From Ignavibacteriaceae bacterium (GTDB taxonomy: Bacteria > Bacteroidota > Ignavibacteria > Ignavibacteriales > Ignavibacteriaceae): a DNA stretch of 64,000 bases. Shown piece by piece: positions 13,141-29,790 of this stretch (position 1 is its first letter; every line of letters begins with the position of its first letter). The notes under the pieces are model-generated. The model saw only the letters and a program-made list of their open reading frames with translations. It was not told the DNA's origin and did not search any database. Position numbers and translations under genes: made by a program. The DNA lies in NCBI GenBank assembly GCA_013360295.1, contig JABWCL010000004.1, positions 62,001-126,000 on the forward strand, in the 5' to 3' direction.

Positions 13141-16100
13141 TCACCTTGGGACAAAGTAAATGTTTTCTTCTCCGAAAGCCTTATATAACTCCTTCAGCGC
13201 CGTCTCAGTATTTTTTAATCTGAGTTTGTTCAGAACTATCTGCGTTGATTTGGTCCCGGGTTCAGAAAGTTCAAGTATAACAGGGTAATTCCCGCTGTGC
13301 TTAGCAGCCAAGCTGTCCAAAACTTCAGAAGCGTTTTGTGGAATTTTATCCCTCTCAAGTAAGATCTTAATAAATTTCGTAAACCTCTCTCTGACTTTTT
13401 CCATCGGTATTACTTCATCAACGTGAAGTTTGATCGCGTCACCGCTGCTTTCGGTCTTCCCGATTATCATTACTGATTTTTCCAATCCGAGGAATTCCCT
13501 GTATTTTTCGAAGACTTTAGAGAATACAATACAGTCACACGATCCGGAATAGTCATCGATCTTAAGGAAGGCCATCTCCCGGTTTGATTTATCATACTTA
13601 CTCTCAAACTCCGTGATAGTACCGGAAGCACGAACCGAAAGGTCGCTGTTCACTTCTTCCGTTTCACCAAGGGCTATGGTTGAGAATGAACGGTACTCTA
13701 TATCATACTTCCGCAGGGGATGCCCGCTTATATAAAATCCTGTAACTTCTCTCTCCTTTGTAAGTTTTTCCGCCTCGCTCCAATCCTCCGCGGTGATGAT
13801 CTCCGGCTTTACAAACTCACTCTCATTGAGTTCATCTCCGAAAAGAGAATTTTTACTCGCTTCCCTGGCAGCCGAGATCTGTGACCCGTAAGCCAGCGCT
13901 CTCTCAACGTTTAGGAAATTGGCTTTCCTGTTTTTATCGACGGAATCGAAAGCGCCAGCAAGCACAAGCCCTTCTACGACTTTCTTATTGATCAGCCTAG
14001 TATCCACCTGTGAGCAGAAATCAAAAATATCGTGAAAGTTCCTGCCGATCTTTGCTTTAGCCTTGATGATCTCCTCTATCGCGTGCGCGCCAACGTTTTT
14101 GATGGCCGCAAGTCCGAATCTGATCTTTCCCTTATCAACATCGAACTCAACTGTTGGTTTATTCACGTTCGGTGGATATACGTTAATTTTCAGCTTCCTG
14201 GCATCCTCCAGGAATTTCGCGATCTTATCTATGTTGTTCAACTCATTCGACATATTCGCGGCGAGGAACTCAGCCGGATAATGCGCTTTCAGGTACGCTG
14301 TCTGATACGCCACGTAAGCATAAGCAACTGAATGGCTTTTGTTAAAACCATAATTCGCGAATTTCTCGATAAGATTAAATAATTCGACTGCGAGATTTTC
14401 TTTAATGCCTTTCCCCGCGGCGCCGGAAACAAATTTTATTTTTTGGCGCTTCATTTCATTTTCATCTTTTTTACCCATCGCTCTTCGCAGAAGGTCAGCT
14501 TCAGCAAGGGACATTCCACCGATCTGGTTAGCGATCTGGATAACCTGCTCCTGGTAAACTATAATACCGTATGTTTCCTTCAGTATCGGCTCAAGTTCAG
14601 GGATAAGATATTCTATCTTCTTTTTACCGAATTTCCTAGCGATAAAGTCATTGATAAAGTCCATCGGGCCCGGACGGTAAAGAGCGTTCATAGCCGCGAG
14701 GTCATTAACCGAAGTCGGTTTTAACTGCTTAAGGTACTCGCGCATTGGGGGAGATTCAAACTGGAATATACCGGTAGTCTGCCCGTTCCAGAAGACTTTG
14801 AATGTCTTGTCATCATCAAAGGGAATCTCATCTATGTTGATCTCGATCTTATGATTTTTCTTTATAAGACCGATAGCGTCCTTGATTATTGATAAGGTCC
14901 TCAGCCCCAGAAAGTCCATTTTTAATAATCCGGCAGCTTCAACTTCCTTCATATTATACTGCGTTACGATTTCCCCCTGCGCTGAGGCAGTTGCCAGCGG
15001 CACATAATTTGTAACGTCACAGGGAGTGATAACCACACCCGCGGCGTGTTTGGACATATTCCTGTTAAATCCCTCCAGAACACGGGAATATTTAAGCAGT
15101 TCTAATATTTTTTCATCCTTACTGTCTCTGACCCACTTCAATTCCATCTTTGTATCAAGCGCCTGGTCGATTGTAAATACTTTACCAAACTTGGACGGAA
15201 TGAACTTGGTGATTTTATCCACTACGGGAATCGGGATTTTCAATACGCGCGCAACATCTCTCAGTACCTGCTTTGATGAAAGTTTGTTGAATGTGATGAT
15301 CTGGCTGACGCAGTTCTCTCCGTATTTGTGCTTTACATAGTTGATCACTTCCTGTCTGCGGTCGTCCTCAAAGTCAATATCTATATCAGGCATTGACTTC
15401 CTCGCGGGATTGAGGAATCTTTCAAAAAGCAAGCTGTACTGTAGGGGATTTATATTGGTAATACCCAATATGTATGCTATAAGGCTGCCCGCGGCGCTTC
15501 CTCTACCAGGGCCAACATATATTTTTTTGCTTTTAGCGTCGTTAATAAAGTCCTGAACAATAAGGAAGTAACCCGCGAAGCCCATATTTTTAATGGTCTC
15601 AAGTTCATAATTGAATCTCTCCAGGATTTCAGGTGAAGGGTCAGGAAATTTTTCCTGCAGTCTCTGTTTTGAGAGTATCACGAGGTAATCATCCAGTGAC
15701 TTCGCGCCTGATTCTTCAGGCACAGGGAAGTTAGGGAAGTAGTAATCTTTAGAGTCAAGTTTGAGATCAATTTTTGATTCAATCTCAAGAGTGTTCGCAA
15801 TCGCATCGGGATAATCACTGAAGATCGCTTTCATCTCCCGTTCACTCTTGAAATATATCTGATCTGTCTTATACTTCAGCTTCCTGTAATCACTGTCGCC
15901 CGTTTTATCTGATAATAGCAGCAGAACGTTGTGCGCGATCGCGTCATCTTTATTGATGTAGTGGCAGTCGTTTGTGGCTACCAGTTTAATATTATATTTG
16001 GAGGCAATCCTCGGAGTATGTGTCAGAACGATCTCATCCTGGGGCAGATTATGATCCTGCAGTTCAAGATAAAAATCATCTCCGAATATATCCTGGAATT

Positions 16101-16605
16101 CCTTCGCGTATTTATCAGCCTTCTCAAGATCACCTGCTACGAGGTACCACGAAATAATACCGCCCAGGCAGGCAGAAGTGCAGATCAAACCTTCACTGTG
16201 TTCACGCAATACTTCAAGGTCAATCCTTGGTTTATAATAATACCCCTCCGTAAATCCGCGCGATGATAATTTAATCAGGTTCTTATACCCTTTAAGGTTT
16301 TTCGCGAGGAGGATAAGATGGCGGTAAGGCTTCCGCTTTTTCCCTGTGACAGGATCTTCCTCCTGCTCTTTAACAAATCTTGGCTTCTCAAGGGTGATAT
16401 ATGCTTCCATACCAATGATCGGCTTAACTCCCTTGTTCTTTGCCTCCTTATAAAACTCCGGCACACCATACAGAACCCCGTGGTCTGTTATGGCCACAGC
16501 GTGCATATCATTATCAACGGCTGCTTTTACAAGCTGTTCAACCGTGCACGCGCCATCCTGCAGGCTGTAATGTGTGTGGTTATGTATGTGAACAAAATCT
16601 GACAT
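13141..16605 (-). CDS. dnaE: DNA polymerase III alpha subunit
   Basis: 1154 residues, full length. The N-terminal PHP domain starts with HIHNHTHYSL, retaining the metal-binding His residues. The polymerase palm has PDIDIDFEDD with catalytic Asp407 and Asp409 (codons near 15381-15387) and the GPGRGSAAGSL element. Tandem helix-hairpin-helix and an OB-fold (about residues 990-1080, SGTITEFESKY onward) follow, as in DnaE1. It is the replicative polymerase. It is the last gene of the long minus-strand operon, 23 bases after dut. No dnaE2-like accessory genes are nearby. Confidence 0.98.
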   Translation of the reverse strand: MSDFVHIHNHTHYSLQDGACTVEQLVKAAVDNDMHAVAITDHGVLYGVPEFYKEAKNKGVKPIIGMEAYITLEKPRFVKEQEEDPVTGKKRKPYRHLILLAKNLKGYKNLIKLSSRGFTEGYYYKPRIDLEVLREHSEGLICTSACLGGIISWYLVAGDLEKADKYAKEFQDIFGDDFYLELQDHNLPQDEIVLTHTPRIASKYNIKLVATNDCHYINKDDAIAHNVLLLLSDKTGDSDYRKLKYKTDQIYFKSEREMKAIFSDYPDAIANTLEIESKIDLKLDSKDYYFPNFPVPEESGAKSLDDYLVILSKQRLQEKFPDPSPEILERFNYELETIKNMGFAGYFLIVQDFINDAKSKKIYVGPGRGSAAGSLIAYILGITNINPLQYSLLFERFLNPARKSMPDIDIDFEDDRRQEVINYVKHKYGENCVSQIITFNKLSSKQVLRDVARVLKIPIPVVDKITKFIPSKFGKVFTIDQALDTKMELKWVRDSKDEKILELLKYSRVLEGFNRNMSKHAAGVVITPCDVTNYVPLATASAQGEIVTQYNMKEVEAAGLLKMDFLGLRTLSIIKDAIGLIKKNHKIEINIDEIPFDDDKTFKVFWNGQTTGIFQFESPPMREYLKQLKPTSVNDLAAMNALYRPGPMDFINDFIARKFGKKKIEYLIPELEPILKETYGIIVYQEQVIQIANQIGGMSLAEADLLRRAMGKKDENEMKRQKIKFVSGAAGKGIKENLAVELFNLIEKFANYGFNKSHSVAYAYVAYQTAYLKAHYPAEFLAANMSNELNNIDKIAKFLEDARKLKINVYPPNVNKPTVEFDVDKGKIRFGLAAIKNVGAHAIEEIIKAKAKIGRNFHDIFDFCSQVDTRLINKKVVEGLVLAGAFDSVDKNRKANFLNVERALAYGSQISAAREASKNSLFGDELNESEFVKPEIITAEDWSEAEKLTKEREVTGFYISGHPLRKYDIEYRSFSTIALGETEEVNSDLSVRASGTITEFESKYDKSNREMAFLKIDDYSGSCDCIVFSKVFEKYREFLGLEKSVMIIGKTESSGDAIKLHVDEVIPMEKVRERFTKFIKILLERDKIPQNASEVLDSLAAKHSGNYPVILELSEPGTKSTQIVLNKLRLKNTETALKELYKAFGEENIYFVPR

Positions 16606-16628
16606 AATATTTTACTTGTTATAAAAAA

Positions 16629-17084
16629 CTATTTTACTCCCGAGTGGCCGAAACCGCCATCGCCACGAGCAGTGTTATTTAATTCACTGCTTACGGTAAT
16701 TTTTGCCGCGTATACTTTTGCTAATACCATCTGTGCGATCCTGTCTCCCCTGTGGATAGTAAAATCATTCTTTCCGAAATTGAATAAAATCACCTTTATC
16801 TCCCCCCTGTAATCGGAATCAATTGTCCCCGGACCATTCAATACACCGATACCGTTTTTTGCTGCAAGCCCGCTTCTCGGGCGGACCTGTAATTCATATC
16901 CGTGCGGGATCTCAACAACCAGATTAGTAGGTACCAGTGTAAATTCGCCGCTTTTAAGAATAATACTTTCGCTGACTGCGGCGCGCAGATCCATTCCCGA
17001 ACTTCCTGCTGTAGCATACTCCGGAATAGGAATATCCGCGAATTCACTATTAAGCTGCCTGAGATATATTTCAACATTTTCCAT
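16629..17084 (-). CDS. dut: Deoxyuridine 5'-triphosphate nucleotidohydrolase
   Basis: 151 residues with all five trimeric dUTPase motifs in order: [40 protein letters not shown] and the C-terminal [10 protein letters not shown] that closes over the active site. It hydrolyses dUTP to dUMP and pyrophosphate, keeping uracil out of DNA and feeding thymidylate synthesis. It sits between the flippase gene (3-base gap) and dnaE (23-base gap), so it is made together with the replicative polymerase. Confidence 0.98.
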
Positions 17085-17087
17085 CGT

Positions 17088-18548
17088 TTACTTTCCTGAT
17101 CGAATTTTTGGTATTACTTTTTTAATATCCTCCACCCTGACGACCCTGAACATAAAGAACCCGGAGATAAACAGGACGAATAAAACAGCATTATACGCAA
17201 GAGTATTCAGATATGGTATCTGAATATATAACTTCATCATCCATGTTACAAGTATAAGAAAAATAATCGCGTATAACTTGGAATACTCATACCGTATCGG
17301 GTAAAGCCTCTGTGATACTATAAAGTAACCGACGGCAATGATTACGTAGCTTATTAATGTTGCCAGCGCCGCGCCATAAATTCCCCCGTAAGGGATCAGA
17401 AGAAAATTAAACAGTACATTCGCGATTGCGCCCGCACCCATAATCAGGGGCGCGGAGCCGCTCTTTTCTTTGATAAAGAACGATGCGGAAAATACCACGT
17501 GAAATCCATTAAACAGGTAACCAAGCAGTACAATTGGAATTATCCCTGTGCCTCCCCAATATGGTTTCCCGATTATATAACCACCCCCGAAATTAAACTT
17601 TATGATATAATCAATAAACAGGATCATAAGTACAATTATAACCGCGCCTGCTGCTGTAAAAAGCGTCATTACTTTAGCAAATACCTGTTCAGCGTCCTCT
17701 TCCTTCGCTATCTTTATCGAAAATGGCTGCCACGCGTACTGGAACATTGAAACAAAAAGCATCATCACGATTCCGAGCCTGTAGTTCGCCTGGTAGATAC
17801 CCAGAGTTTTCAGGTCGGTCAAGTACTCCACTATGGGGCGGTCAATTACCTGGAGCATCATCGCAGATATTCCCGCGGGAAGATAAGGCAAACCGAACTT
17901 GATCATCCTCTTCAGCAGTTCTTTATCATAAGCGAATACATAATTTTTCATTATTATCGGCAGCAGAAGCAGGAAAGACGATAATGACGCGATAAGGTTA
18001 CTTATGAACGCGCCTTCAATCCCTGTCTTAAGAACAAGCAGCAGGTACATATTCAGTGATATTGCCACGATAATATTCACGATTCTGATGAGTGAAAACT
18101 TTAATGCCTGGTTATTTACCCGCAGATACACAAGCGGAAGTGATATTATCGTATCCAGGATTAAAATCAGGACGAGATAATAAAATATTATTTCATTTGT
18201 ACCGGAAATCCTGAGGACATTATTCAGCGGATCCCGCGTGATTAACATCAGCAGGATGATGAGTACGGATGTTATCAAAAGGAAATTAAACCCGGTGCTG
18301 AAAACGAGTTTTTTATCTTTATGTTCATCGGAAGCAAGAAATTTGAGGTAGGCTGAATCTATCCCATACAAAAAAATAACACTCAGAATCGCGATATAGG
18401 CATATACATTGGTTATTATTCCATAATCACCCGGTAAAAAGACGTTTGTATATAACGGTAGTAACAGAAAATTCAGAAACCGCCCAACGATCGTGCTCAG
18501 CCCATAGAGAGCAGTTTCTTTTGTTAATTGCTTTAACTTTGAGAGCAT
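17088..18548 (-). CDS. Wzx-type polysaccharide flippase (MOP superfamily)
   Basis: 486 residues, strongly hydrophobic, with roughly 12-14 predicted transmembrane helices. The N-terminal pattern (Thr-Ala-Leu-Tyr-Gly-Leu-Ser, then FLNFLLLPLYTNVFLPGDYG) is typical of RfbX/Wzx and MurJ-like flippases that move undecaprenyl-linked oligosaccharides across the inner membrane. It lacks obvious MurJ signatures, so an O-antigen or exopolysaccharide role is more likely. No glycosyltransferases lie beside it; the neighbours are nadC (15 bases upstream) and dut, which is unusual for a polysaccharide gene. Confidence 0.88.
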   Translation of the reverse strand: MLSKLKQLTKETALYGLSTIVGRFLNFLLLPLYTNVFLPGDYGIITNVYAYIAILSVIFLYGIDSAYLKFLASDEHKDKKLVFSTGFNFLLITSVLIILLMLITRDPLNNVLRISGTNEIIFYYLVLILILDTIISLPLVYLRVNNQALKFSLIRIVNIIVAISLNMYLLLVLKTGIEGAFISNLIASLSSFLLLLPIIMKNYVFAYDKELLKRMIKFGLPYLPAGISAMMLQVIDRPIVEYLTDLKTLGIYQANYRLGIVMMLFVSMFQYAWQPFSIKIAKEEDAEQVFAKVMTLFTAAGAVIIVLMILFIDYIIKFNFGGGYIIGKPYWGGTGIIPIVLLGYLFNGFHVVFSASFFIKEKSGSAPLIMGAGAIANVLFNFLLIPYGGIYGAALATLISYVIIAVGYFIVSQRLYPIRYEYSKLYAIIFLILVTWMMKLYIQIPYLNTLAYNAVLFVLFISGFFMFRVVRVEDIKKVIPKIRSGK

Positions 18549-18563
18549 TGGCTGAAATTAGTT

Positions 18564-19418
18564 CTACAATTCAATGTTCATCGAAAGATCCATCGACTTG
18601 ACACTGTGTGTAAGCGCACCGATGGAGATGAAATCTACTCCCGAATCCAGATACTTTGAAATATTATGCGCGGTTACACCGCCTGAAATCTCAAGTTTCA
18701 CTTTTCCGCCAACCAGTTGCACAGCCGCTTTCAGGTTTTCGGGCGAAAAATTATCCAGCATAATCACATCAACATCACATCCAAGAGCTTCTTTTAACTG
18801 CTCAATGTCCGCAACTTCAACTTCGATCTTATACTTATACATATTAACTTCGCGGTGCTTCAGACAGGCGTCAACCGCATTTTTTATGGAACCGGCAGCT
18901 TTTATATGATTATCTTTGATAAGGTACATATCAAATAAACCGTAACGGTGATTTTCACACCCGCCGACTCTGACGGCATACTTATCGAGGTATCTTAATC
19001 CGGGCATAGTCTTCCTCGTATCAAGTATGGTAATATTACTCTGGTTAACTAAGTTCTTAAAACTTCTCGATAAAGTAGCGATACCCGACAACCTCTGCAT
19101 AAAATTTAAGGCTGTCCTTTCCGCTCCGAGAAGGCTTTTAACCCGCCCCGATACCCTTATAATAGCCTCGAATGGTTTGATATCATCACCGTCTTTCTTC
19201 AAGGCCTGAAAAAAAACTGTGTTATCCAGTTTCTCAAATACTTTCTGTGCGACTACTATCCCGCAAACTACTCCTTCCTCTTTGGCAATAATAGAGGCTG
19301 TTGCTATCTCATCACCCGCAAAGATTGCCTCTGATGTAATATCTCCTTCACGGATATCTTCAACCAGGCATCTTTGAACTAATTGTTCAATTTCAAATAT
19401 GTAGTCAATCTGTGACAT
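18564..19418 (-). CDS. nadC: Nicotinate-nucleotide pyrophosphorylase (quinolinate phosphoribosyltransferase)
   Basis: 284 residues, normal length. Recognisable segments are EDIREGDITSEAI near the N terminus, GAERTALNFMQRLSGIAT, the phosphoribosyl-site TRKTMPGLR with KYAVRVGGCENHR, KDNHI and the C-terminal EISGGVTAHNI. It converts quinolinate and PRPP into nicotinate mononucleotide for de novo NAD synthesis. Its start overlaps the end of the thioesterase gene by 14 bases, which suggests coupled translation. nadA and nadB are not in the window. Confidence 0.97.
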   Translation of the reverse strand: MSQIDYIFEIEQLVQRCLVEDIREGDITSEAIFAGDEIATASIIAKEEGVVCGIVVAQKVFEKLDNTVFFQALKKDGDDIKPFEAIIRVSGRVKSLLGAERTALNFMQRLSGIATLSRSFKNLVNQSNITILDTRKTMPGLRYLDKYAVRVGGCENHRYGLFDMYLIKDNHIKAAGSIKNAVDACLKHREVNMYKYKIEVEVADIEQLKEALGCDVDVIMLDNFSPENLKAAVQLVGGKVKLEISGGVTAHNISKYLDSGVDFISIGALTHSVKSMDLSMNIEL

Positions 19419-19821
19419 AAAATCCTTTTACACTATTTATAAAAAATTCAGGTGGACGGATAGCCTTTCCCGTTTTTGCGTTTACGAAAACAAGTTCAAT
19501 GTATCCCTCCACTATCTTCACTCCCCTTTCTTTTGAAAAAATCCTTGTGTCAAGCCTGACTCTCAGTTCGGGAAGTTTTTCCATTCTGGTTTCAATCACC
19601 AGAAGTTCATCATAGCGGGCGGAATTTTTATACTTAATAAAAGCTTCCACTACGGGCATATAGTAGCCTTCCTTTTCGATCTTATCATAAGTAAGGCCAA
19701 AATCACGTAACAGTTCGGTCCTGCCAACTTCAAAATACTCATAGTACTTCCCGTTATAGACGAACTGCATTTTATCCGTATCAGCATAGCGGACGCGGAT
19801 TTCTGTTTTATGAATTAACAT
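19405..19821 (-). CDS. Acyl-CoA thioesterase, 4HBT/YbgC type
   Basis: 138 residues forming a single hot-dog fold. The N-terminal motif RYADTDKMQFVYNGKYYEYF (11-30) is the 4-hydroxybenzoyl-CoA thioesterase signature, with Asp16 at the catalytic position, followed by VGRTELLR. Family members hydrolyse acyl-CoA or acyl-ACP thioesters; YbgC in proteobacteria is linked to the Tol-Pal envelope system. Here it lies just after an Omp85 gene (26-base gap), which fits an envelope or lipid-related role, but its substrate is unknown. Confidence 0.9.
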   Translation of the reverse strand: MLIHKTEIRVRYADTDKMQFVYNGKYYEYFEVGRTELLRDFGLTYDKIEKEGYYMPVVEAFIKYKNSARYDELLVIETRMEKLPELRVRLDTRIFSKERGVKIVEGYIELVFVNAKTGKAIRPPEFFINSVKGFYVTD

Positions 19822-19847
19822 TTATTTTCAAATAATTACAAAATTTA

Positions 19848-21875
19848 TCAAAATGCTTCACCAATCCCGAAATGAAACTCGAACAGTTCTTTCAGGAACG
19901 GACGCTCAAAAATTTTCTTCGTCGAAGCAGGATCATAAGTCTTAATACCAAAATCAATCCTGAACGGAGCGATTACGGTGTAGTATCTCAGTCCAATACC
20001 GGAGGCAACCGAAAAATCCCTGAATCTGAATTTTGTGTAGTCGCTCCAGGTATTACCTGCATCCACAAACCCAACAAAACCAAAATCACTTTTTGTGCGA
20101 TAGCGAAATTCAAGTGACGTCTCAAATATAAAATTACCTCCGCTGAGGATAACTTCTTCATTATTTATCGATATGATCTTGGTCGGCGCTAATTCTCTCG
20201 CCCGCCATCCGCGTAACGAGTTACTCCCTCCCGCAAAGAATTTCCTCGTCGAGGGGACTTCATTTGCGTCACCGGAAAACGATTGCAAATGCCCTGCCTT
20301 AAGTTTTAGGCCTCCCACTGCTGTCGAGTTTTCACGCAGAGGGGAATAAAGTCCGATAGTCCCCATTACCTTATAAAACAGAGGTTCCTTAAAATCAGGA
20401 TTAATCAGCTTTGATACTGCATAAGTTAAGGAGTTGGCCTCTTCAACGACTAACGACAAATTATAACCGCGAGTAGGATATAACGGATCATCAGTCTTGG
20501 TGGATTTCATGTCCGCGCCAAATACTGAGAGCGTATTATTAAGCATCTTCACGCCCGAGACTCCGCTGAACAACTCATCCGCAACCTCGAAGTTATAAAA
20601 CGCCGTCAGAAAATTTATAAAGGTGTAACTGGGTAGCTCAAATTCAAAACTTAGTTTGCCGCCGTAATTTCTTTTATTAGAATACAGGTCTTTGTATAAT
20701 CTAAAATATCCTTCCAGTATGCCAAAGACCGGACGGTTAAAAACATAAGGCTGTTCAATTCGCGCTGTCCCGTCAATAAATCCGTAAAAACTGGAATCAC
20801 GGAAATTTAAACCCTTTATTAATTTTGCAGGGCTGATAGTAAAAAAGTCCTGCACGCCGCCGGAGCCTGCAATCGTTAGTTTTCTGGCTTCACCAAGAAA
20901 ATTTTTCCTGATGATCGTAGCTCCCAAACCGATATTAAACGTATTCTGCTGATTATTCATCAGTATCTCCGGAGAAACCTCGTGAAGCATTCCGACATTA
21001 CAACTGACGAGAATGGGAACATGTCCTGAGCTTGTATCAGAAGTGAGAGGCGATATGACCACGGAGTTAAATAATCCTGTCCGGTAAAGCCGAATCTGGC
21101 TCAGCCTTATTTTCTCAAGGCTGTAGTATTCCTCTTTGTCTATACCTACTATCCTTTTGAGCAGTTCGATATCCACATCGTAAGCTCCTTCCCCCTTCTT
21201 ATCAATCACAAGTTCCTGGATTTTGAGCCTTCCGCCGGTGTTAAAATGGATGGAAATGTCAGCCCTTCTCCTCGCAGTATCCTTAATTATAACGGTACTG
21301 TCAAACCTCGCGAACATATAACCGTTATTTTCATATAACTGGAGAGACTGTTCAATCTTTCCCCGGATGATTGCTTCATTATACCTGACAGTCGTATCAA
21401 GTTCAAATAGTTTTTCAACTTCATCTCTTAATTCCCTGTGAATTGATTTAATCCCTTCCACCCGGGCTTTACCAAATAAAGACGCGGTTCCTTCAACGAT
21501 ATTATAAGTAAGTATCACCTCAAGGTCATTAGTATTTTTTTCAATACTTGCCTTTATCGATGTTTCAAAAAAACCATTGGTGTTGTAAAACTCCCGCAGA
21601 GCCCTAACATCACTTTTAATCCGCAGACTGTCGAATAATTCCGGGGGCCTGCCAAGGGCGGAAAATTTATTAAGGAATTTCCATATCCAGAGCGGGGTCT
21701 CCTGTGAGATGATCTTGGATTTCAGTACTCCCTCCGAAAAGGTGCTATTACCGGTAAAAGCAATTTTTACCAGTTCGTATTTTTTACCGTCCGATTCCTG
21801 GGCAAAGGCAATATTACTGACAAGAAAGAATATAAATAGGATCCCTGCGATCCGGCTCAGGTTACTCAAGCACAA
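19848..21875 (-). CDS. Omp85/BamA-TamA family outer-membrane protein
   Basis: 675 residues. A signal peptide ends with Ala-Phe-Ala-Gln near residue 25. POTRA-like repeats fill about residues 33-290, recognisable from the repeated pattern of a Gly-containing turn and 'F..(G/S)x(I/V)' strands. The C-terminal ~370 residues are the Omp85 barrel with the conserved loop-6 element SLRGWRA and a terminal Phe. BamA inserts barrels; TamA and related members help autotransporters or lipid transfer. With no bam or skp neighbours here, and with ~3 POTRA domains, assignment beyond Omp85 is open. It overlaps the upstream lipoprotein gene by 14 bases. Confidence 0.88.
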   Translation of the reverse strand: MCLSNLSRIAGILFIFFLVSNIAFAQESDGKKYELVKIAFTGNSTFSEGVLKSKIISQETPLWIWKFLNKFSALGRPPELFDSLRIKSDVRALREFYNTNGFFETSIKASIEKNTNDLEVILTYNIVEGTASLFGKARVEGIKSIHRELRDEVEKLFELDTTVRYNEAIIRGKIEQSLQLYENNGYMFARFDSTVIIKDTARRRADISIHFNTGGRLKIQELVIDKKGEGAYDVDIELLKRIVGIDKEEYYSLEKIRLSQIRLYRTGLFNSVVISPLTSDTSSGHVPILVSCNVGMLHEVSPEILMNNQQNTFNIGLGATIIRKNFLGEARKLTIAGSGGVQDFFTISPAKLIKGLNFRDSSFYGFIDGTARIEQPYVFNRPVFGILEGYFRLYKDLYSNKRNYGGKLSFEFELPSYTFINFLTAFYNFEVADELFSGVSGVKMLNNTLSVFGADMKSTKTDDPLYPTRGYNLSLVVEEANSLTYAVSKLINPDFKEPLFYKVMGTIGLYSPLRENSTAVGGLKLKAGHLQSFSGDANEVPSTRKFFAGGSNSLRGWRARELAPTKIISINNEEVILSGGNFIFETSLEFRYRTKSDFGFVGFVDAGNTWSDYTKFRFRDFSVASGIGLRYYTVIAPFRIDFGIKTYDPASTKKIFERPFLKELFEFHFGIGEAF

Positions 21876-22461
21876 TATCCCTTTTTACTAACTCATACTC
21901 CGGAAAATCCCGCTTAACCTCCGACCCAAAAAAAGCGAAGACTGCAGCTGGTGCGCCCGGTGCAATGTACATCTTGACAATTCCATCGGGGAAAACGCCA
22001 AGGTGAGCGGTGAATATTTTGTTGTTGGGGAGATCTGCAACATACAAGTATTGTTCCCCGCCGCTGGTTCCGAGGAAATAATCCGTTGAACTATAAAAAA
22101 GATAATTCCTATTTTCTATCCGGACGAATTTCACCAGGCTCTGCTCAAGTGAACCGTCATATACAGGTGATTCGAATAATGGTTTTAAGGGTGAGGCGTT
22201 TCCGTCAAACAAATAGAACTTTATTCCCCACACTCCCCCGCTGTCAATTTCCTCCATTGCTGCGATCATTTCTTTTCCATTAATAAGTGAGTCACTCTTT
22301 TCCGCCCATTTAATGTTTGGATTGTAATTGTTTTGTAAAAACAGCAGAGCGCTCTTTGTAGGGTCAGAATGATCACCCGCGTCTTCGTTATTTCTCTCGC
22401 AGGAAGTGAAGAAGAACGCAATTAGTAAAAGTAAAAAAACAGTACTACGGTTTAATGACAA
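21862..22461 (-). CDS. Small lipoprotein of unknown function
   Basis: 199 residues. A clear lipoprotein signal is present: MSLNRS, a Leu/Phe-rich stretch and the lipobox Phe-Thr-Ser-Cys21, followed by an acidic Asn/Glu/Asp-rich linker that would not be retained in the inner membrane by a +2 Asp rule. The rest is a mixed alpha/beta sequence without a recognised motif. It starts 17 bases inside the YkuD-like gene and ends 14 bases inside the Omp85 gene, so it is locked into that operon and may be an accessory lipoprotein of the Omp85 protein (inference from position only). Confidence 0.75.
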   Translation of the reverse strand: MSLNRSTVFLLLLIAFFFTSCERNNEDAGDHSDPTKSALLFLQNNYNPNIKWAEKSDSLINGKEMIAAMEEIDSGGVWGIKFYLFDGNASPLKPLFESPVYDGSLEQSLVKFVRIENRNYLFYSSTDYFLGTSGGEQYLYVADLPNNKIFTAHLGVFPDGIVKMYIAPGAPAAVFAFFGSEVKRDFPEYELVKRDIVLE

Positions 22462-23068
22462 CTTTGGTTCCTTTTCTTACAATTATAAATAATTCGTCTA
22501 TCTCTTCGTCACTCATCGCAATGGATCCGTCGGTCCAATTAAAGACAAAAGGCAAATTGTTTAATAGAAAATTCAGACTCCCAGTTCCGTGTAAGCCGAT
22601 ATTTCCGCCGATACCCGTTTTCGGAGAAATACACCCTTCATAAAAGTACTGATACTTTATATCCTCAAATTCTTTCTTTGAAATAATCCCGTGCCTGTAT
22701 GCGGTCTCAGCATCTTCCGGATTAGGGAAGTTCAGCCGGAGGAACCTGTGGAAGGTATGCTGAGTGTCTATTGAACAAATACTGTAGGTACCAACCGGTG
22801 TACCCCTGTCATTCGCACTCCGTTTTGGATTAGGATTCCCGCCTGTAAATACTCTGTATTCTTTAACCTTAGTCGTGTCAGAGTATAACTCCATTACGTT
22901 CCGTGAGGAGTATACAACGAGGCTCACATTCTCGGGAGTTCTGATACCCTTGGCAGCCAGAGCCTCGTTAAGCGCGGGCTTTCCGGAATTCAGGAACGTT
23001 CCCAAAAGGAGCATTATGGCAAGTCCGACAAGCACTCCTGCGGTCGAAAGAAGGATTTTCTTAATCAT
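22445..23068 (-). CDS. YkuD-fold L,D-transpeptidase-like protein with Cys-to-Ser substitution
   Basis: 207 residues with an N-terminal membrane anchor (about 5-27). The YkuD core is recognisable: VYSSRNVMELY, FTGGNPNPKRS, RGTPVGTYSI, then Gly-Leu-His160-Gly-Thr and NWTDGSIAMSDEEIDEL. In active enzymes the last element reads NWT-x-Gly-Cys-Ile; here codon 22523-22525 is TCC, so residue 182 is Ser. A second Cys (146, in YEGCISP) is present elsewhere. L,D-transpeptidases make 3-3 crosslinks or attach proteins to peptidoglycan. This one may be catalytically dead, a regulator, or use another residue. First gene of the eight-gene operon. Confidence 0.85.
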   Translation of the reverse strand: MIKKILLSTAGVLVGLAIMLLLGTFLNSGKPALNEALAAKGIRTPENVSLVVYSSRNVMELYSDTTKVKEYRVFTGGNPNPKRSANDRGTPVGTYSICSIDTQHTFHRFLRLNFPNPEDAETAYRHGIISKKEFEDIKYQYFYEGCISPKTGIGGNIGLHGTGSLNFLLNNLPFVFNWTDGSIAMSDEEIDELFIIVRKGTKVVIKP

Positions 23069-23282
23069 TAACGTTTTTGACTGATAATTCTAATTCAAAT
23101 AAAATAAACTTATAATTTACATTTAAGTCAAATAATATTAAAGAAAAGAAAAGAGTAACTGAGAAAAAGCCGGATTTTGTACGATTTTCCCCTTATTAAA
23201 CCGATTTTTCTTGGTTAGGGTGGCTATATTCGATAATTTTACTCTGTAGATTTTTCTTTTTTTCACAATATTGGAACCCTCT

Positions 23283-24470
23283 ATGAAACGAACTATAGTT
23301 GCCATGCCCGGAGACGGCATAGGTAAAGTAGTCCTCCCTGAAGCAATCAGAGTCCTCGAAGCAGCCGGATTTGAAGCAGAATACATTCACTCAGATATTG
23401 GCTGGGATTTCTGGTGCTCCGAAGGAAACGCTCTCCCTCAACGAACAATCGATCTATTAGAAAAACATAAAATAGGGCTCTTTGGCGCGATCACTTCAAA
23501 GCCAAAAGATGCCGCGGACAAGGAACTGGCTCCCGAGCTTAAAGGAAAAGGATATGTATACTTTTCGCCTATAGTAAGTATGCGCCAGCACTTCAATCTC
23601 GATATATGTATCCGCCCCTGTATATCTTTCAAAGGGAACCCTCTCAATTTCATCCGTAAAACAGACAATCAGCATTTTGAAGAACCAAACGTAAACACTG
23701 TTGTATTCAGGCAGAACACTGAAGGGCTTTATGCCGGTGTTGAATGGACAAATCCCCCGCAGGCTGTCAGGGATGCATTGGAAACCCACCCGAAAATGAA
23801 GGCTTTCAAACACGTTGAAAGCAAGGATATGGCGATTTCCACAAGGATTATGTCACGCAATGCCTGCCGCAGGATCATACGTGCAGCTTTCGAGCATGCT
23901 AAAAAGTTTGGATATACAAATGTAACGGTATGCGAAAAGCCGAATGTGCTGAGAGAAACCTCCGGAATGATGTTCAGCGAAGCAAAACTGATCGCGAAAG
24001 AGTACCCGGGTATTGCGCTCTGGGACACAAATATTGACGCTCAGATGATGTGGCTTACAAAGAATCCTGAAACTTACGGAGTAGTTGTTGCCGAAAATAT
24101 GTTCGGTGATATTATAAGCGACGCTTTCGCGGGTCTCATCGGAGGACTCGGTTTTGCCTGCTCCGCTAATCTCGGAGATGAAGTTTCAGTATTTGAACCC
24201 ACCCACGGCTCCGCCCCTAAATACGAACAGCTCAACCCTTCAATAGTTAATCCGATCGCGATGATCCTGAGCGCAGTAATGATGCTGGAACACATCGGCG
24301 AAAAGGAAAAGGCTGTTAAAATTAAGGATGCCATAGCGGAAGTCGTTCTTGAGGGTAAAGTGATGACTTATGATATGTTGAAGCTGAAAGGCGGCCCTGA
24401 TGTTTTCGCGCAGGGAGCCTGCACTACCCAGCAGATGACTGATGCAATAATTGCAAAACTGAAGGGATAA
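23283..24470 (+). CDS. Isocitrate/isopropylmalate-family dehydrogenase (probable NAD-type isocitrate dehydrogenase)
   Basis: The ATG at 23283 gives a 395-residue protein starting MKRTIVAMPGDGIG; the open frame upstream has only a TTG. Family features are the N-terminal GDGIG, the substrate loop FRQNTEGLYAG, Arg-rich RIMSRNACRR, the metal-binding NMFGDIISDAFAG and the cofactor segment EPTHGSAPKY. The decarboxylating beta-hydroxyacid dehydrogenases act on isocitrate, isopropylmalate or homoisocitrate. Neighbouring aconitase and citrate lyase genes favour isocitrate. The direction, oxidation to 2-oxoglutarate or the reverse, cannot be read from sequence. First gene of the citrate module; the HD gene starts 2 bases after its stop. 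Confidence 0.85.
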   Translation: MKRTIVAMPGDGIGKVVLPEAIRVLEAAGFEAEYIHSDIGWDFWCSEGNALPQRTIDLLEKHKIGLFGAITSKPKDAADKELAPELKGKGYVYFSPIVSMRQHFNLDICIRPCISFKGNPLNFIRKTDNQHFEEPNVNTVVFRQNTEGLYAGVEWTNPPQAVRDALETHPKMKAFKHVESKDMAISTRIMSRNACRRIIRAAFEHAKKFGYTNVTVCEKPNVLRETSGMMFSEAKLIAKEYPGIALWDTNIDAQMMWLTKNPETYGVVVAENMFGDIISDAFAGLIGGLGFACSANLGDEVSVFEPTHGSAPKYEQLNPSIVNPIAMILSAVMMLEHIGEKEKAVKIKDAIAEVVLEGKVMTYDMLKLKGGPDVFAQGACTTQQMTDAIIAKLKG

Positions 24471-24472
24471 AA

Positions 24473-25006
24473 ATGAGAGAAAAAGTAATTGAGATCTGGC
24501 CTGAGATCAACTGGATACAGGACGCTGATCTCCGTGAAAAGACCTTACAGTGCTGGATCTACGCTATTGAAAACAGTGTGCTGTCCATAGAAGATCTGAA
24601 CGTAATCCCTTTCTCACTGCTTCTGAAAGATTGTAAGATCACTTTCATGAATCACAAAAGAACCGCGGTTCAGCTTGCCGTGGATATTGCTAAAAGAATG
24701 AAGGATAATTTCGGCGATGAGATCAGCATCAATATGGATTATCTTATCTCGGGAGCAATACTTATCGATGTTGGTAAACTGCTTGAATATGAAATTACCG
24801 ACGGAAAATTAAAAACCAGTTTCGGCGGTAAACTTCTCAGGCACCCTTTCAGCGGCGTCGGTATTGCTGACCGCTTCGGGATCCCCGTTGAGGTTCAGCA
24901 TATTATCGCTACGCATTCCAAGGAAGGAGACCTCGGCATTCGCACGGTGGAGAGCATTATTGTCCACCATGCTGATTTTGTAAGCTTCGATCCTTTTAAA
25001 GCATAA
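24473..25006 (+). CDS. HD-domain protein with altered HD motif
   Basis: 177 residues resembling small HD-superfamily proteins. Conserved parts are NHKRTAVQLAV with His61, GAILIDVGKLLEYE (94-107), LLRHPFSGVGIADRFG with His124, HIIATHSKEG (His143, His148) and IIVHHADF. The defining His-Asp pair is changed: codon 24764-24766 is ATC, so the position before Asp99 is Ile98 not His. The family norm is LLHDVGKL. HD proteins are metal-dependent phosphohydrolases; loss of one ligand makes activity doubtful. Sitting 2 bases after the dehydrogenase gene suggests a role tied to citrate metabolism, such as sensing or nucleotide control, but this is guesswork. Confidence 0.8.
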   Translation: MREKVIEIWPEINWIQDADLREKTLQCWIYAIENSVLSIEDLNVIPFSLLLKDCKITFMNHKRTAVQLAVDIAKRMKDNFGDEISINMDYLISGAILIDVGKLLEYEITDGKLKTSFGGKLLRHPFSGVGIADRFGIPVEVQHIIATHSKEGDLGIRTVESIIVHHADFVSFDPFKA

Positions 25007-25076
25007 TTCTTCATAATTGCAATGATGGCGGCATCTGAGTATGTTCGCCGTCATTGCTGTAAATATTGGAGCCAGA

Positions 25077-27050
25077 ATGTCCCAAACACTTATTGAAAAA
25101 ATAGTACAGAAATTTGCTGTCGGACTGGGACAAGGCGAACTTGTCCACTCCGGCGATTATATAATGTTCAGCCCCGCCTACGTGATGACTCACGACAATA
25201 CGGGTGCTGTAATCCCCAAATTCAAGTCAATCGGCGCGAAAAAGTTATTCAACCCGCGGCAGGTGGTACATACACTTGATCACAATGTTCAGGATACCTC
25301 AGAAAAAAATCTCGAGAAATATAAAAAGATAGAAGACTTCTCAAGGAGTATGGGTGCCGATTTCTATCCCGCCGGGCGCGGAATAGGCCACCAGATAATG
25401 TGCGAGGAAGGTTATGCCTGGCCCGGTACGATGGTGGTTGCCTCGGACAGCCACTCAAATATCTATGGCGGGCTCGGCTGTCTGGGTACACCTATTGTCC
25501 GGACTGATGCCGCCGCGATTTGGGCTACAGGGAAAACCTGGTGGCAGATACCTCCCATTGTTAAGGTTGAACTTACCGGCAGGCTTAAACCCGGCGTTTA
25601 CGGCAAGGATGTGATCATAGCCTTGTGCGGAATTTTTAACAACGATGAGGTCCTGAATTGCGCCATCGAGTTCACCGGCGAAGGAGTAAAAAACCTTAGT
25701 GTAGATGACCGGCTGGCGATTGCGAATATGACTACCGAATGGGGTGCAATGGCGGGTGTCTTTCCGATCGACGAGACCACAATAGACTGGCTGAAAAAAA
25801 GAAATGATTTTATTAAACTGCGCGGACTGGAAGGAGTCGCTTCAGACGCGGACGGCAACGGTGTCCACCCCAGAATAAATGACCTCAGAATTTCCGGACT
25901 GGAAAAAGCTCCACTTTATGCGGATGAAGACGCACGGTACTCAAAAGAGATTGAGTTAAACCTCGCGGCAATTAATCCGGTCCTCTCCGGGCCTAACTCA
26001 GTTAAGGTTTACAATCCTGTCACGGAATTAAAAAAACAAAAAATTAAAGTCAACAAGGCATATCTGGTTTCCTGTGTCAACAGCCGGCTTTCGGATATCG
26101 AAATTGCAGCCAGCGTGGTGAAAGGGAAAAAGATTAACAGCGATGTAAAGTTTTATGTTGCTGCCGCTTCTTCCGAAGTTGAAAACAAAGCTAAGGAATC
26201 AGGAGCGTGGACCAGCCTTATTGAAGCCGGAGCCATACCGTTGCCCGCAGGCTGCGGCCCCTGCATTGGTCTCGGTACCGGCCTCCTGGAGGACGGTGAG
26301 GTCGGTATCTCCGCGACAAACCGCAACTTCAAAGGGAGAATGGGTTCACCAAAAGCGCTTGCTTATTTAGCTTCGCCCGCGGTAGTCGCGCAATCGGCCC
26401 TCAGCGGTTACATTGACTATCAGTACGAAGATGAGACTTCATTACTCTCAGCGGATATCACCGAAAATAAACCGGTAGAAGCTTCCGGCAAGTCAGTCGA
26501 GATCATTCCCGGATTCCCCGGAAGCATCCGGGGAGAACTGGTCTTCTGCCATCAGGATAACCTCAATACCGACGGTATCTATCCAGGCAAATATACTTAT
26601 AACGATGACTTTACCCCTGAACAGCAGGCATCAGTTGTAATGGAAAACTACGATCCCGAATTCGGAAAGATAGTTGACCGCGGTGACATTCTTGTCGGTG
26701 GATATAATTTCGGCACAGGATCCTCCCGTGAACAGGCGGCAACTGCGCTGAAATACAGGGGCATTTCCCTGGTTGTCGCGGGCAGTTTCAATGAAACATA
26801 TAAAAGAAACGCCATCAATAATGGTTATCTCCTTATCGAATGCCCTGATCTGGTTAATGATTTAAAAGAGAAATTTGGCACAAAAGCTTTAACGGTGAAG
26901 ACAGGCACTGAGGCAGTCATTGATTTCAGCAATTCAAAGATAAATACTTCTGAGAAGGAATATAGTATCGGTTCCGTCGGCAAAGCCGCACAGGAACTGA
27001 TAGTTGCTGACGGACTCGAAAAATGGGTAGCCGAATTAATTAAAAATTAA
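25077..27050 (+). CDS. Aconitase-type hydro-lyase, LeuC and LeuD domains fused
   Basis: The ATG at 25077 is supported by GGAG (25068-25071) 5 bases upstream; the product is 657 residues. A catalytic 4Fe-4S domain comes first, with cluster Cys333 (SCVNSR) and Cys393/Cys396 (GCGPC). The swivel domain follows after a linker, with [10 protein letters not shown]. The order and length match fused homoaconitase/aconitase of the LYS4/IPMI-like group more than classical AcnA (~890 residues). It should interconvert citrate and isocitrate in this context; homocitrate chemistry is the alternative. Its last codons run into an AT-rich repeat copy. It is preceded by the HD gene (70 bases) and followed after 145 bases by the PrpD-like gene. 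Confidence 0.85.
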
Positions 27051-27070
27051 AAATGAAGAATTAAGAATTA
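27036..27070 (-). repeat. Dispersed AT-rich repeat, copy 3 (minus orientation)
   Basis: On the minus strand 27045-27062 matches the 18-mer AATTCTTAATTTTTAATT with one difference (T for G on the plus strand at 27055). It begins inside the last codons of the aconitase-type gene, whose Ile-Lys-Asn end is encoded by repeat sequence. Confidence 0.6.
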
Positions 27071-27195
27071 TTCAAATAAAAAACTCCCCTTTTTCTATAG
27101 GTGGTCACTGATCCCGATGCATCCGGACGAAATGAGGGGTTATTTATAAACGAAATTTTTTCAAACTCAACAACCTAAAACAAAATAACATACAT

Positions 27196-28566
27196 ATGGA
27201 AAAATCAATTTCAAGAATTATCTCCGAATTTGCATACAATCTGAAATTTGAAGACCTTCCTCCCGAAGTGATACACGAGGCTAAAAGATACCTTTATGAC
27301 TCCATCGGCTGTGCGTACGGAGCCATCAATACTAAGGACGTAAAAATTATGCGCGAACTTCTGACCGAAATCGGCGGAAGCCCCGAATCAACAGTACTAA
27401 TCACCGGTGAAAAGCTTCCTGCCGTTAACACTGCGCTCCTCAATTCGCTGATGATACGCTCACTCGATTTTAATGATATATATTGGAAGGAAGATCCTTC
27501 CCACCCTTCCGACATTATTCCGGCAGCCATCTCCGCGGCTGAATTAAGCGGAGCCTCAATGAAAGATGTAATAGTAGGCATCGTTCTTGCTTACGAATTT
27601 GAACAGCGGTTATGTGAATTTGCTAAACCGGGAGTAAGAGAACGGAAATGGCACCACGCCACACTTACCCAGTTCGTTTCTCCGCTCGTTGCCGGTAAAC
27701 TTCTGGGTCTCACAGTGGATCAGCTGGTAAATGCGATCGGAATTAACGGATCCCATAACCATACAATTGGCTGCCCTACTGCTGGTAAACTGACTATGAT
27801 GAAAAATACCGTAGATCCGATGGCAACCTCAACCGGGGTCTTCGCCGCCCTTATGGCTAAAAAAGGATATACCGGTACAGAGGCCGTATTCGACGGGAAA
27901 GAGGGCCTGATGGATGTTTTTGGACCGGCCTGGGACATTGATAAACTCATTGGCGGACTCGGCGAGAAATACAAAATACTTGAATGCAGTATGAAAGCGT
28001 TCCCCACAGAAGCGCTTACTCACACTCATATCTCTGCTACGCTTAAAGCTATTACTAAAAATGATATTAAATCCGACGAAATAGAAAAAGTGACCGTTAC
28101 AACCATTGCCCGCGCTTGTGATATACTTTTTGATCCCCATAAGTACCGCCCCGAATCACGTGAGACTGCCGATCATTCTCTCCCTTACTGTATCGCGGCA
28201 GCAATTGTCGACAGGCAGATTACGACCAACTCTTTCTCTGATGAAAAGCTGAAAGATCCGCGCATATGGCAGGTAATTGATAAAATTAAAGGTGAAGCTT
28301 CCCTCGAATTTGAAGCTATGTTCCCCGCAAAACAGCCCTCGAAAGTTGTAGTAAAAACAATTGACGGCAGGGAATTCTCGGAATATCTTGAGTACCCCAA
28401 AGGTGACCCGAGAGAACCGATGACAGAAGACGACCTTGATAATAAATTCAAAGCGCTTGCCGGCAACACCATCACAGACCGCAGGAAAGAAGAAGTTAAA
28501 AAGACTATATTCAACTGCGAACTGCTGACAGCAAAAGAATTTATGAACAGCATGAAACTGAATTAA
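27196..28566 (+). CDS. MmgE/PrpD-family protein
   Basis: 456 residues, normal for the family that includes 2-methylcitrate dehydratase, cis-aconitate decarboxylase and iminodisuccinate epimerase. Hallmarks are the N-terminal helical domain (EAKRYLYDSIGCAYGA), HHATLTQFVSPLVAGKLLGL, LKAFPTEALTHTHISA-like segment, and ESRETADHSLPYCIAAA near residues 310-330. Family members add or remove water from citrate-like acids without an Fe-S cluster. Placed between an aconitase-type gene and citrate lyase genes, dehydration of citrate or methylcitrate is plausible. No prpB or prpC is nearby, so a classical methylcitrate cycle is not supported in this window. The citrate lyase fusion starts 9 bases after its stop. 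Confidence 0.88.
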   Translation: MEKSISRIISEFAYNLKFEDLPPEVIHEAKRYLYDSIGCAYGAINTKDVKIMRELLTEIGGSPESTVLITGEKLPAVNTALLNSLMIRSLDFNDIYWKEDPSHPSDIIPAAISAAELSGASMKDVIVGIVLAYEFEQRLCEFAKPGVRERKWHHATLTQFVSPLVAGKLLGLTVDQLVNAIGINGSHNHTIGCPTAGKLTMMKNTVDPMATSTGVFAALMAKKGYTGTEAVFDGKEGLMDVFGPAWDIDKLIGGLGEKYKILECSMKAFPTEALTHTHISATLKAITKNDIKSDEIEKVTVTTIARACDILFDPHKYRPESRETADHSLPYCIAAAIVDRQITTNSFSDEKLKDPRIWQVIDKIKGEASLEFEAMFPAKQPSKVVVKTIDGREFSEYLEYPKGDPREPMTEDDLDNKFKALAGNTITDRRKEEVKKTIFNCELLTAKEFMNSMKLN

Positions 28567-28575
28567 AGGAAAAAG

Positions 28576-29790
28576 ATGGACTCGTTAAAAATTGCTTCCG
28601 CGGGTAAGAGCGGTGCTACTGTCCGCTCCGATTGCCGGATCGAAATTGAACTTACCGGTGACAAAGTCGTTAAGGTTGAGCTTGTCAGTAAAGTTGAAGC
28701 GCTCTACGGTGAAAACATCACCGCGCAGTTAAACGAACTGACTAAATTTTTCAATCTCACCGGTGCTGTCATCCGTATCGAGGATTTCGGCGCTCTTCCT
28801 TATACAATCGCCGCCAGATTTGAAGCAGCATTTAAAATCTTATTCCCCTCTGAAAAGAAGGAATTCCTTCCTGAGATGCCGGAGAAAAATAAATATTCTA
28901 CCGCAAAGGATAAAATGCGGCGGAGCAGATTGTACCTCCCGGGTAATGAACCGAAGTTCTTTGTGAATGCTGGGCTTCATAGGCCTGACGGCATTATTCT
29001 TGATCTTGAGGACAGTGTCGCTCCCGCGGAAAAATACGCGGCTGCGTTTTTAGTCAGGAATACTCTCCGGACGGTTGATTTCTATGGCGCCGAGCGAATG
29101 GTGCGTATTAACCAGCTCCCACGCGGACTTGATGATCTTGAGTTCATTGTACCACACAATATCCACGTGATCCTGATTCCGAAATGTGAATCCCCGGATG
29201 ATGTGGTTAAGGTTGAAGCGAAGGTGAATGAGATAAAAAAGAAACGCAAAGTGGAGGGGAATACTTTTTTTATGCCGATCATTGAGAGCGCGAAGGGAGT
29301 TTTAAAAGCGTACGAAATTGCTTCCGCTTCCGGAAACATTTGCTCGCTCGCAATAGGACTTGAAGACTACACTGCTGATCTCGGCACACAGCGTACTCTA
29401 GAAGGAAAAGAAAGTTTCTTCGCCAGGTCAATGGTTGTTAATGCTGCCCGCGCCGCGGGAGTTCAGCCTATTGATACCGTTTTCTCCGATGTTTCCGATA
29501 TGGAAGGCCTGACACAAAGTGTCATTGAAGCTAAATCACTCGGCTTCGAAGGGAAAGGATGCATTCATCCAAGGCAGATCGACCCGATACATAAGGCATT
29601 TGCTCCTGCACCGGAAGAAATCGAAAAAGCTAAAAAAATTGTCAACGCCTACAATGAAGCAGAACGAAGGGGCTTAGGTGTGGTTGCGCTTGGATCAAAA
29701 ATGATTGACGCCCCTGTTGTTAAAAGGGCACAGCGCACCATAAGGCTGGCTGTTCTTAATGGTTTAATGAAAGAAGAGGAAATTGCGTAA
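28576..29790 (+). CDS. citE: Citrate lyase acyl-carrier (CitD) and beta (CitE) subunits fused in one protein
   Basis: 404 residues with two parts. Residues 1-95 resemble the CitD acyl carrier: SKVEALYGENI, then a FGALPYTIAARFEAAF segment matching the CitD 'KGAL...I.AR.EAA' pattern. CitD normally carries its prosthetic group on Ser14; alignment here is uncertain, with Ser18 in VRSDC the nearest candidate. Residues 113-404 are CitE: RRSRLYLPGNEPKF, IILDLEDSVAPAEK, MVRIN, IPKCES, IIESAKG and LAIGLEDYTADLG. CitE cleaves citryl-carrier to acetyl-carrier and oxaloacetate. AAGGA precedes the ATG, and the stop overlaps the citF start. CitD and CitE are separate genes in most known citrate lyases. No citC, citX or citG is visible. 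Confidence 0.85.
   Translation: MDSLKIASAGKSGATVRSDCRIEIELTGDKVVKVELVSKVEALYGENITAQLNELTKFFNLTGAVIRIEDFGALPYTIAARFEAAFKILFPSEKKEFLPEMPEKNKYSTAKDKMRRSRLYLPGNEPKFFVNAGLHRPDGIILDLEDSVAPAEKYAAAFLVRNTLRTVDFYGAERMVRINQLPRGLDDLEFIVPHNIHVILIPKCESPDDVVKVEAKVNEIKKKRKVEGNTFFMPIIESAKGVLKAYEIASASGNICSLAIGLEDYTADLGTQRTLEGKESFFARSMVVNAARAAGVQPIDTVFSDVSDMEGLTQSVIEAKSLGFEGKGCIHPRQIDPIHKAFAPAPEEIEKAKKIVNAYNEAERRGLGVVALGSKMIDAPVVKRAQRTIRLAVLNGLMKEEEIA

Follow-up and report, generated by a model that had tools for sequence, protein, structure and literature searches.

A YkuD-domain protein with serine in place of the catalytic cysteine, and its Omp85 neighbour, in the Ignavibacteriales

YkuD wall-crosslinking enzymes normally require one cysteine, and catalytically dead relatives frequently turn into regulators or receptors. 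Among the described proteins closest to the one discussed here, DpaA, of the DpaA/YafK amidases, depends on its cysteine, the C143A variant being reported as inactive (PMC8263019), and lacks a conserved Arg, as does our protein (PMC8263019, PMC12729407). Lpg1514, a YafK protein, is described as hydrolysing beta-lactams in a serine-dependent manner, in which case Ser132 is used and the canonical Cys174 is kept (PMC13400389). As for the L,D-transpeptidase LdtMt2, its C354S variant is reported to form neither product nor a covalent complex with carbapenem and to have the natural substrate bound in the crystal (PMC11410929). In the open-licence literature of PubMed Central we found no case in nature of a whole clade replacing the YkuD cysteine (a description elsewhere is possible), nor did the same literature yield a YkuD protein as a partner for BamA or TamA.

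A natural replacement of this kind is carried by a gene within the window, that is, the whole analysed stretch of 64,000 nucleotides from the genome of an Ignavibacteriaceae bacterium (GCA_013360295.1, contig JABWCL010000004.1, positions 62,001 to 126,000). The features on which the analysis is based are listed below in window coordinates; the counts refer to the 148-genome census described further on.

19848..21875, minus strand: Omp85 gene, 675 aa, POTRA and Omp85 barrel (PF07244, E 1.1e-21; PF01103, E 1.1e-28)
21862..22461, minus strand: lipoprotein-like gene of 199 aa, with a 17-base overlap with the YkuD gene
22445..23068, minus strand: Ser-type YkuD gene, 207 aa, an open reading frame with a predicted N-terminal membrane helix and a YkuD domain, Ser replacing the catalytic Cys
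22523..22525, minus strand: codon TCC of Ser182, the position of the catalytic Cys (codon read and alignment)
22589..22591, minus strand: codon of His160, the position of the catalytic His (codon read and census)
22631..22633, minus strand: codon of Cys146, a residue specific to the clade and probably paired with Cys98 (Cys in 134/148)
22775..22777, minus strand: codon of Cys98, likewise specific to the clade and probably paired with Cys146 (Cys in 142/148)
22985..23065, minus strand: residues 2-28, predicted membrane helix (a helix in the AF2 model)

The 207-aa protein belongs to the YkuD family by its match to PF03734 (E 1.3e-15; 58.7 bits against the curated Pfam cut-off of 23.4), and its AF2 model (pLDDT 95.0, pTM 0.86) has the YkuD fold: it matches B. 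subtilis YkuD (4a1i) with Z 17.8 (108 residues, 1.4 A) and LdtMt2 entries with Z of about 15, the positions of the histidine and the nucleophile being the same. It differs from these L,D-transpeptidases in that Ser stands for Cys, the His is often lost in the clade, and no Arg follows the nucleophile pair (GSIA versus GC[VI]R of the long paralogue). DpaA (8ikr) was the only solved chain matched by a profile of 51 orthologues (E 2e-5); in this match Ser182 aligns to the Cys of the GCYAM motif, within a second matched stretch that is weak alone, and in the MAFFT alignment it shares a column with the Cys of related Cys-type proteins. Unlike DpaA, the Ser-type protein lacks the essential active-site cysteine, is predicted to be anchored in the membrane and is linked to Omp85. 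A previous sequence-only reading of this DNA had proposed that a TCC serine, residue 182, occupies the place of the catalytic cysteine, and the codon and both alignments bear this out; His160 and Cys146 were likewise found where it had placed them. No family was assigned by an NCBIfam scan to the YkuD protein or to the lipoprotein-like protein. The one other PF03734 place in the genome is a frame of 602 aa whose SHGCVR motif is intact, and a canonical long Cys-type YkuD (SHGC[VI]R) occurs alongside the Ser-type protein in this genome and in all nine loci of that type that were read in other relatives.

As computed in this analysis, the serine is fixed, the histidine drifts, the cysteine is ancestral-like in the relatives, a membrane anchor is predicted and the gene linkage is conserved. 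Our main reading, to which we give a probability of roughly 0.6, is that the protein is an inner-membrane-anchored pseudo-L,D-transpeptidase, presumably inactive and carrying a probable disulphide, which, we infer, would bind the stem peptide of peptidoglycan (or one resembling it) and would be the partner, in physical contact, of a dedicated Omp85 protein. The arguments and the alternatives are as follows.

The census covered 148 genomes read individually, namely 143 of the 164 searched in the order Ignavibacteriales and five of one sister family of the class. The search of the order had matched 145 genomes, from which G077 and G056 were removed as non-orthologues by score (the match in the former is a Cys paralogue; in the latter it has E 3.8e-4 and the contig begins inside the neighbourhood). 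As to the named genomes, a search with the single protein found no relative there, and an alignment-based search gave 119 relatives, 80 of which were kept; they include records of Ignavibacteriales, Ignavibacterium and Melioribacter, among others. Residue 182 is Ser in 147 of the 148 genomes, Asn in one and Cys in none. The nucleophilic cysteine of catalytic L,D-transpeptidases is therefore absent from the entire set, and the orthologue comparison that the sequence-only reading had proposed shows that the serine is not private to this strain. Serine in 147 of 148 genomes and cysteine in none, at a mean pairwise identity of the Ser-type domain of 51% (3000 random pairs), thus indicates long-term selection. 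The sole member with Asn182 (G064, locus L317, its protein being identical to that of L141) also has Gln160 and possesses the most altered active site in the clade.

Position 160 (His in the window protein) is occupied by His in 118 genomes, by Gln in 26, by Glu in three and by Ile in one, and Ser182 is retained in 29 of the 30 genomes that lack His160. Parsimony on the best tree of 130 distinct proteins, built without columns 160 and 182, gives 19 changes between His and other residues, many branches being weak and the exact number uncertain; a second tree, of 69 proteins and also with many weak branches, gives 13. A rough recount with the weak branches collapsed gave 19 again, on which we do not lean. 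When the 207 positions are ranked by entropy, position 182 is 17th and position 160 is 53rd. The surroundings of Ser182 (NLPF..NWT[ND]GS) stay fixed in the Ser clade: G161, G163, L172, P173, W178, T179 and E192 are invariant in the 130 distinct proteins and F174, N177, G181 and S182 show one departure each, and across the 148 genomes W178 and T179 never vary and G181 is found in 147. At position 184, 142 of the 148 genomes have Ala (GSIA), and the Arg after the nucleophile is absent, as is characteristic of DpaA/YafK proteins. A catalytic residue is thus replaced clade-wide within a domain that is otherwise conserved, as would be expected of a pseudoenzyme, and the fixed serine together with the drifting His160 points to a clade that has most likely lost transpeptidase chemistry and kept a putative pocket still under selection.

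The Ser clade shares its substitution, at the same catalytic position, with LdtMt2 C354S (8pxy), which is laboratory-made, whereas here we deal with a natural clade state with further changes (PMC11410929). Given this natural LdtMt2-like change and the drifting base, selection appears to act on binding; the fixed Ser and the drifting His make the clade a clean case for telling selection on binding apart from selection on catalysis. The earlier suggestion of a pseudoenzyme or a binding protein gains support from the order-wide serine, from the drift of His160 (the 19 parsimony changes with their weak branches) and from the LdtMt2 C354S analogy (PMC11410929).

The alternative that survives best is a working serine enzyme, in which Ser182, aided by His160, would serve as the nucleophile of an acyl-enzyme hydrolase or transferase with a peptide or an ester as substrate. 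Serine at position 182 is invariant and not just tolerated (147/148), His is present in 118 of 148 genomes, so that some weak Ser-His chemistry is conceivable, and serine chemistry has been proposed on the YafK scaffold of Lpg1514, but there a different Ser is used and the Cys is still present, whereas in the Ser clade it is the canonical Cys that has been exchanged (PMC13400389). Against a serine enzyme speak the 30 of 148 genomes that lack His, 29 of which keep Ser, and the LdtMt2 C354S variant is reported to be devoid of transpeptidase activity (PMC11410929). We consider this alternative unlikely and retain the reading of a pseudo-L,D-transpeptidase.

As to the phylogenetic position of the Ser-type proteins, they form one side of a branch with SH-aLRT support of 96 in the first tree and 90 in the second. 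The 36 rows of Cys-type relatives in the tree set comprise 16 short YafK-like proteins, mostly of the same class, and 20 loci elsewhere in the phylum (from 19 genomes, G474 being represented twice), fetched from a longer list of phylum matches; His and Cys are both kept in all 36. A tblastn search with the window Omp85 gave no match beside the 20 nearer Cys-type loci, and ancestral linkage was not seen there. The loop between the histidine and the serine was tried as a mark of the clade and rejected: it is about nine residues longer than in the nearer Cys-type relatives, but the spacing (22) equals that in the other Cys group.

In the predicted membrane helix, F15, Y22 and G23 are almost invariant across the clade, a hint of contacts within the membrane. 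At F15 and Y22 the sole full-length exception is the window protein, in which both are replaced, a point against the main reading; its pocket is intact.

The linkage of the Ser-type gene to Omp85 is new relative to the sequence-only reading. In 117 of 119 distinct loci an Omp85 gene of the same strand lies within four genes downstream, and in the wide-flank set it is found downstream, again on the same strand, in 84 of the 85 loci; as for the two misses among the 119, the contig of L141 ends inside the Omp85 start, and in L091 (genome G053) the Omp85 gene is located on a different contig. The pair occurs in three genomic settings, marked by frr..yicC, by dnaE and by que-like genes. In the usual one it is preceded by rpsB-tsf-pyrH-frr and followed by yicC-gmk (names by eye from translations), and in the sister family (f13) que-like genes precede it (names also by eye). 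In the window a thioesterase-nadC-flippase-dut-dnaE run follows, as it does in only two of the 85 other loci, and the co-directional run including the Ser-type gene and dnaE spans 13141-23068. The description of the gene as leading a core operon with dnaE is thus correct for this window and seldom holds beyond it, dnaE runs being found in 2/85 loci versus 84/85 for Omp85; the dnaE operon was ruled out as a meaningful context. A scan for promoters and terminators gave results close to those for shuffled sequences and is not drawn upon.

Genes of the lipoprotein-like family are situated between the YkuD and Omp85 genes in 72 of 141 loci. The median spacing from the YkuD gene to the lipoprotein gene is -14 (an overlap; 64 loci) and, where the latter is absent, that from the YkuD gene to Omp85 is +7 (55 loci), both with longest-frame starts, so that the overlaps may be overstated; such spacing suits coupling of the YkuD, lipoprotein and Omp85 genes. 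In the lipoprotein-like protein, for which no Pfam family was found at E 0.001, Cys21 is shared by 90% or more of the 41 homologues aligned; its model (pLDDT 90.8) has no clear fold match. An Ivy-like (lysozyme inhibitor) fold was rejected for it and is a lead only, since the best Z of 7.1 (4ps6) is at the background level and Foldseek gave no match at E 0.001.

The neighbour at 19848-21875 has both the POTRA domain and the barrel of the Omp85 superfamily. Its profile finds both BamA (best E 1.7e-30) and TamA (4.9e-26), and the protein scores below the NCBIfam cut-offs for BamA (TIGR03303, 151.6 versus 297.15), TamA (NF047950, 97.8 versus 625) and TamL (NF052279, 147 versus 400). PF01103 is found at five places in the genome, most strongly in a separate 843-aa frame; we class the neighbour as a paralogue, and not as BamA or TamA proper. 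Ser-YkuD was also considered as a substitute for a missing TamB and this was dropped: a search for PF04357 found nothing in the same genome, yet it is patchy in the relatives, so the absence is not established. TamB was found in 9 of 41 relatives, in frames of about 1500 aa where full length, a count in which detection and real patchiness are not separated. In the sister family a penicillin-amidase gene comes after the Omp85 gene of the unit (PF01804, E 5e-208 for L192:12498-14963), with relatives in L227, L229 and L230.

Omp85 matches were found in 160 of the 164 genomes of the order; 21 genomes gave no strong match to Ser-YkuD, and 17 of these have Omp85. Seven of them (G002, G054, G073, G075, G076, G156 and G157) have a readable locus that lacks just the YkuD gene, and five more (G080-G084) have Omp85 elsewhere and no Ser-YkuD. 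Since Omp85 persists without it in several lineages, Ser-YkuD is not an obligate partner of Omp85. Several solitary losses of the Ser gene would also fit the next alternative, according to which the protein is a binding protein unrelated to Omp85 that has merely inherited its operon context and serves general wall sensing or another partner; moreover, the frr..yicC block is itself conserved, so the linkage is partly inherited. However, the pair persists in changed contexts (dnaE; the que-like genes of f13), into which the former neighbours do not follow, and we regard an Omp85-unrelated binder as improbable and partnership with Omp85 as the preferred reading.

As for the two cysteines, Cys146 was found in none of the Cys-type relatives, and judging by the alignments both Cys98 and Cys146 are gains of the Ser clade. 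One of the six genomes without Cys98 has a gap there, in a split gene. Among the 130 distinct proteins 115 have both cysteines, nine have only Cys98, five have neither and the remaining row has a gap. A Cys one or two residues away is present in three of the 14 proteins without Cys146. The co-occurrence gives a Fisher p of 7e-6 with relatedness disregarded, and in a tree-aware test with few pairs three changes go the same way and none the opposite way (sign test, p 0.25, not significant). No protein has lost Cys98 and kept Cys146, a pattern that suggests a disulphide between them, probably a structural one. The sequence-only reading had suggested Cys146 as a possible nucleophile, and its conservation in 134 of 148 genomes and its gain by this very clade would suit a relocated catalytic residue; with 14 genomes lacking Cys in this column, none of the Cys-type relatives having it, and Cys98 lost in none of the 115 proteins with Cys146 against five in which both are lost, as in a structural disulphide, we find a relocated nucleophile very improbable and abandon this proposal.

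The codons at position 182 in the 148 genomes are TCA in 75, TCT in 30, TCG in 29, TCC in 10, AGT in two, AGC in one and AAT in one, so that 43 (TCT, TCC, AGT and AGC) are one base away from a Cys codon, as is TCC of the window from TGC. The proximity of these two codons is what might speak for a decaying gene or an assembly error, an explanation that can safely be dismissed, as can a fresh mutation or a read error, in view of the open frame, of a serine that persists in 147 of 148 genomes across a long divergence and of the use of all four TCN codons as well as AGY; the gene had earlier been described as not obviously decaying, and rightly so.

If the protein is indeed a pseudo-L,D-transpeptidase, its history may have begun in the ancestor of the Ignavibacteriales and one sister family, where the catalytic Cys would have been changed to Ser and two cysteines, probably forming a disulphide, would have been gained. 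Catalysis would have been lost, and the pocket around Ser182 would have been selected as a binding site, the ligand being most likely the stem peptide of peptidoglycan or one resembling it. Ser-YkuD may work with the Omp85 protein encoded next to it and, in loci that have one, with the small lipoprotein; possibly it places or gates the Omp85 outer-membrane assembly barrel relative to the cell wall. A further-reaching version, which we put forward as doubtful, makes the clade-wide Cys-to-Ser pseudo-L,D-transpeptidase the peptidoglycan-reading inner-membrane subunit of a so far undescribed Ser-YkuD/lipoprotein/Omp85 machine that would couple outer-membrane assembly to the wall in Ignavibacteria. 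Because the gene is so steadily linked to an Omp85 paralogue, the coordination of outer-membrane assembly and the wall becomes accessible to tests in a poorly studied branch of the phylum.

One more observation concerns another part of the window, where a gene on the plus strand (28576-29790) encodes a citrate-lyase ACP-like domain (PF06857) fused to an HpcH/HpaI citrate-lyase-type domain (PF03328). This gene is preceded (23271-28566) by the genes of isocitrate dehydrogenase, a 177-aa protein without a Pfam match, aconitase and an MmgE/PrpD protein.
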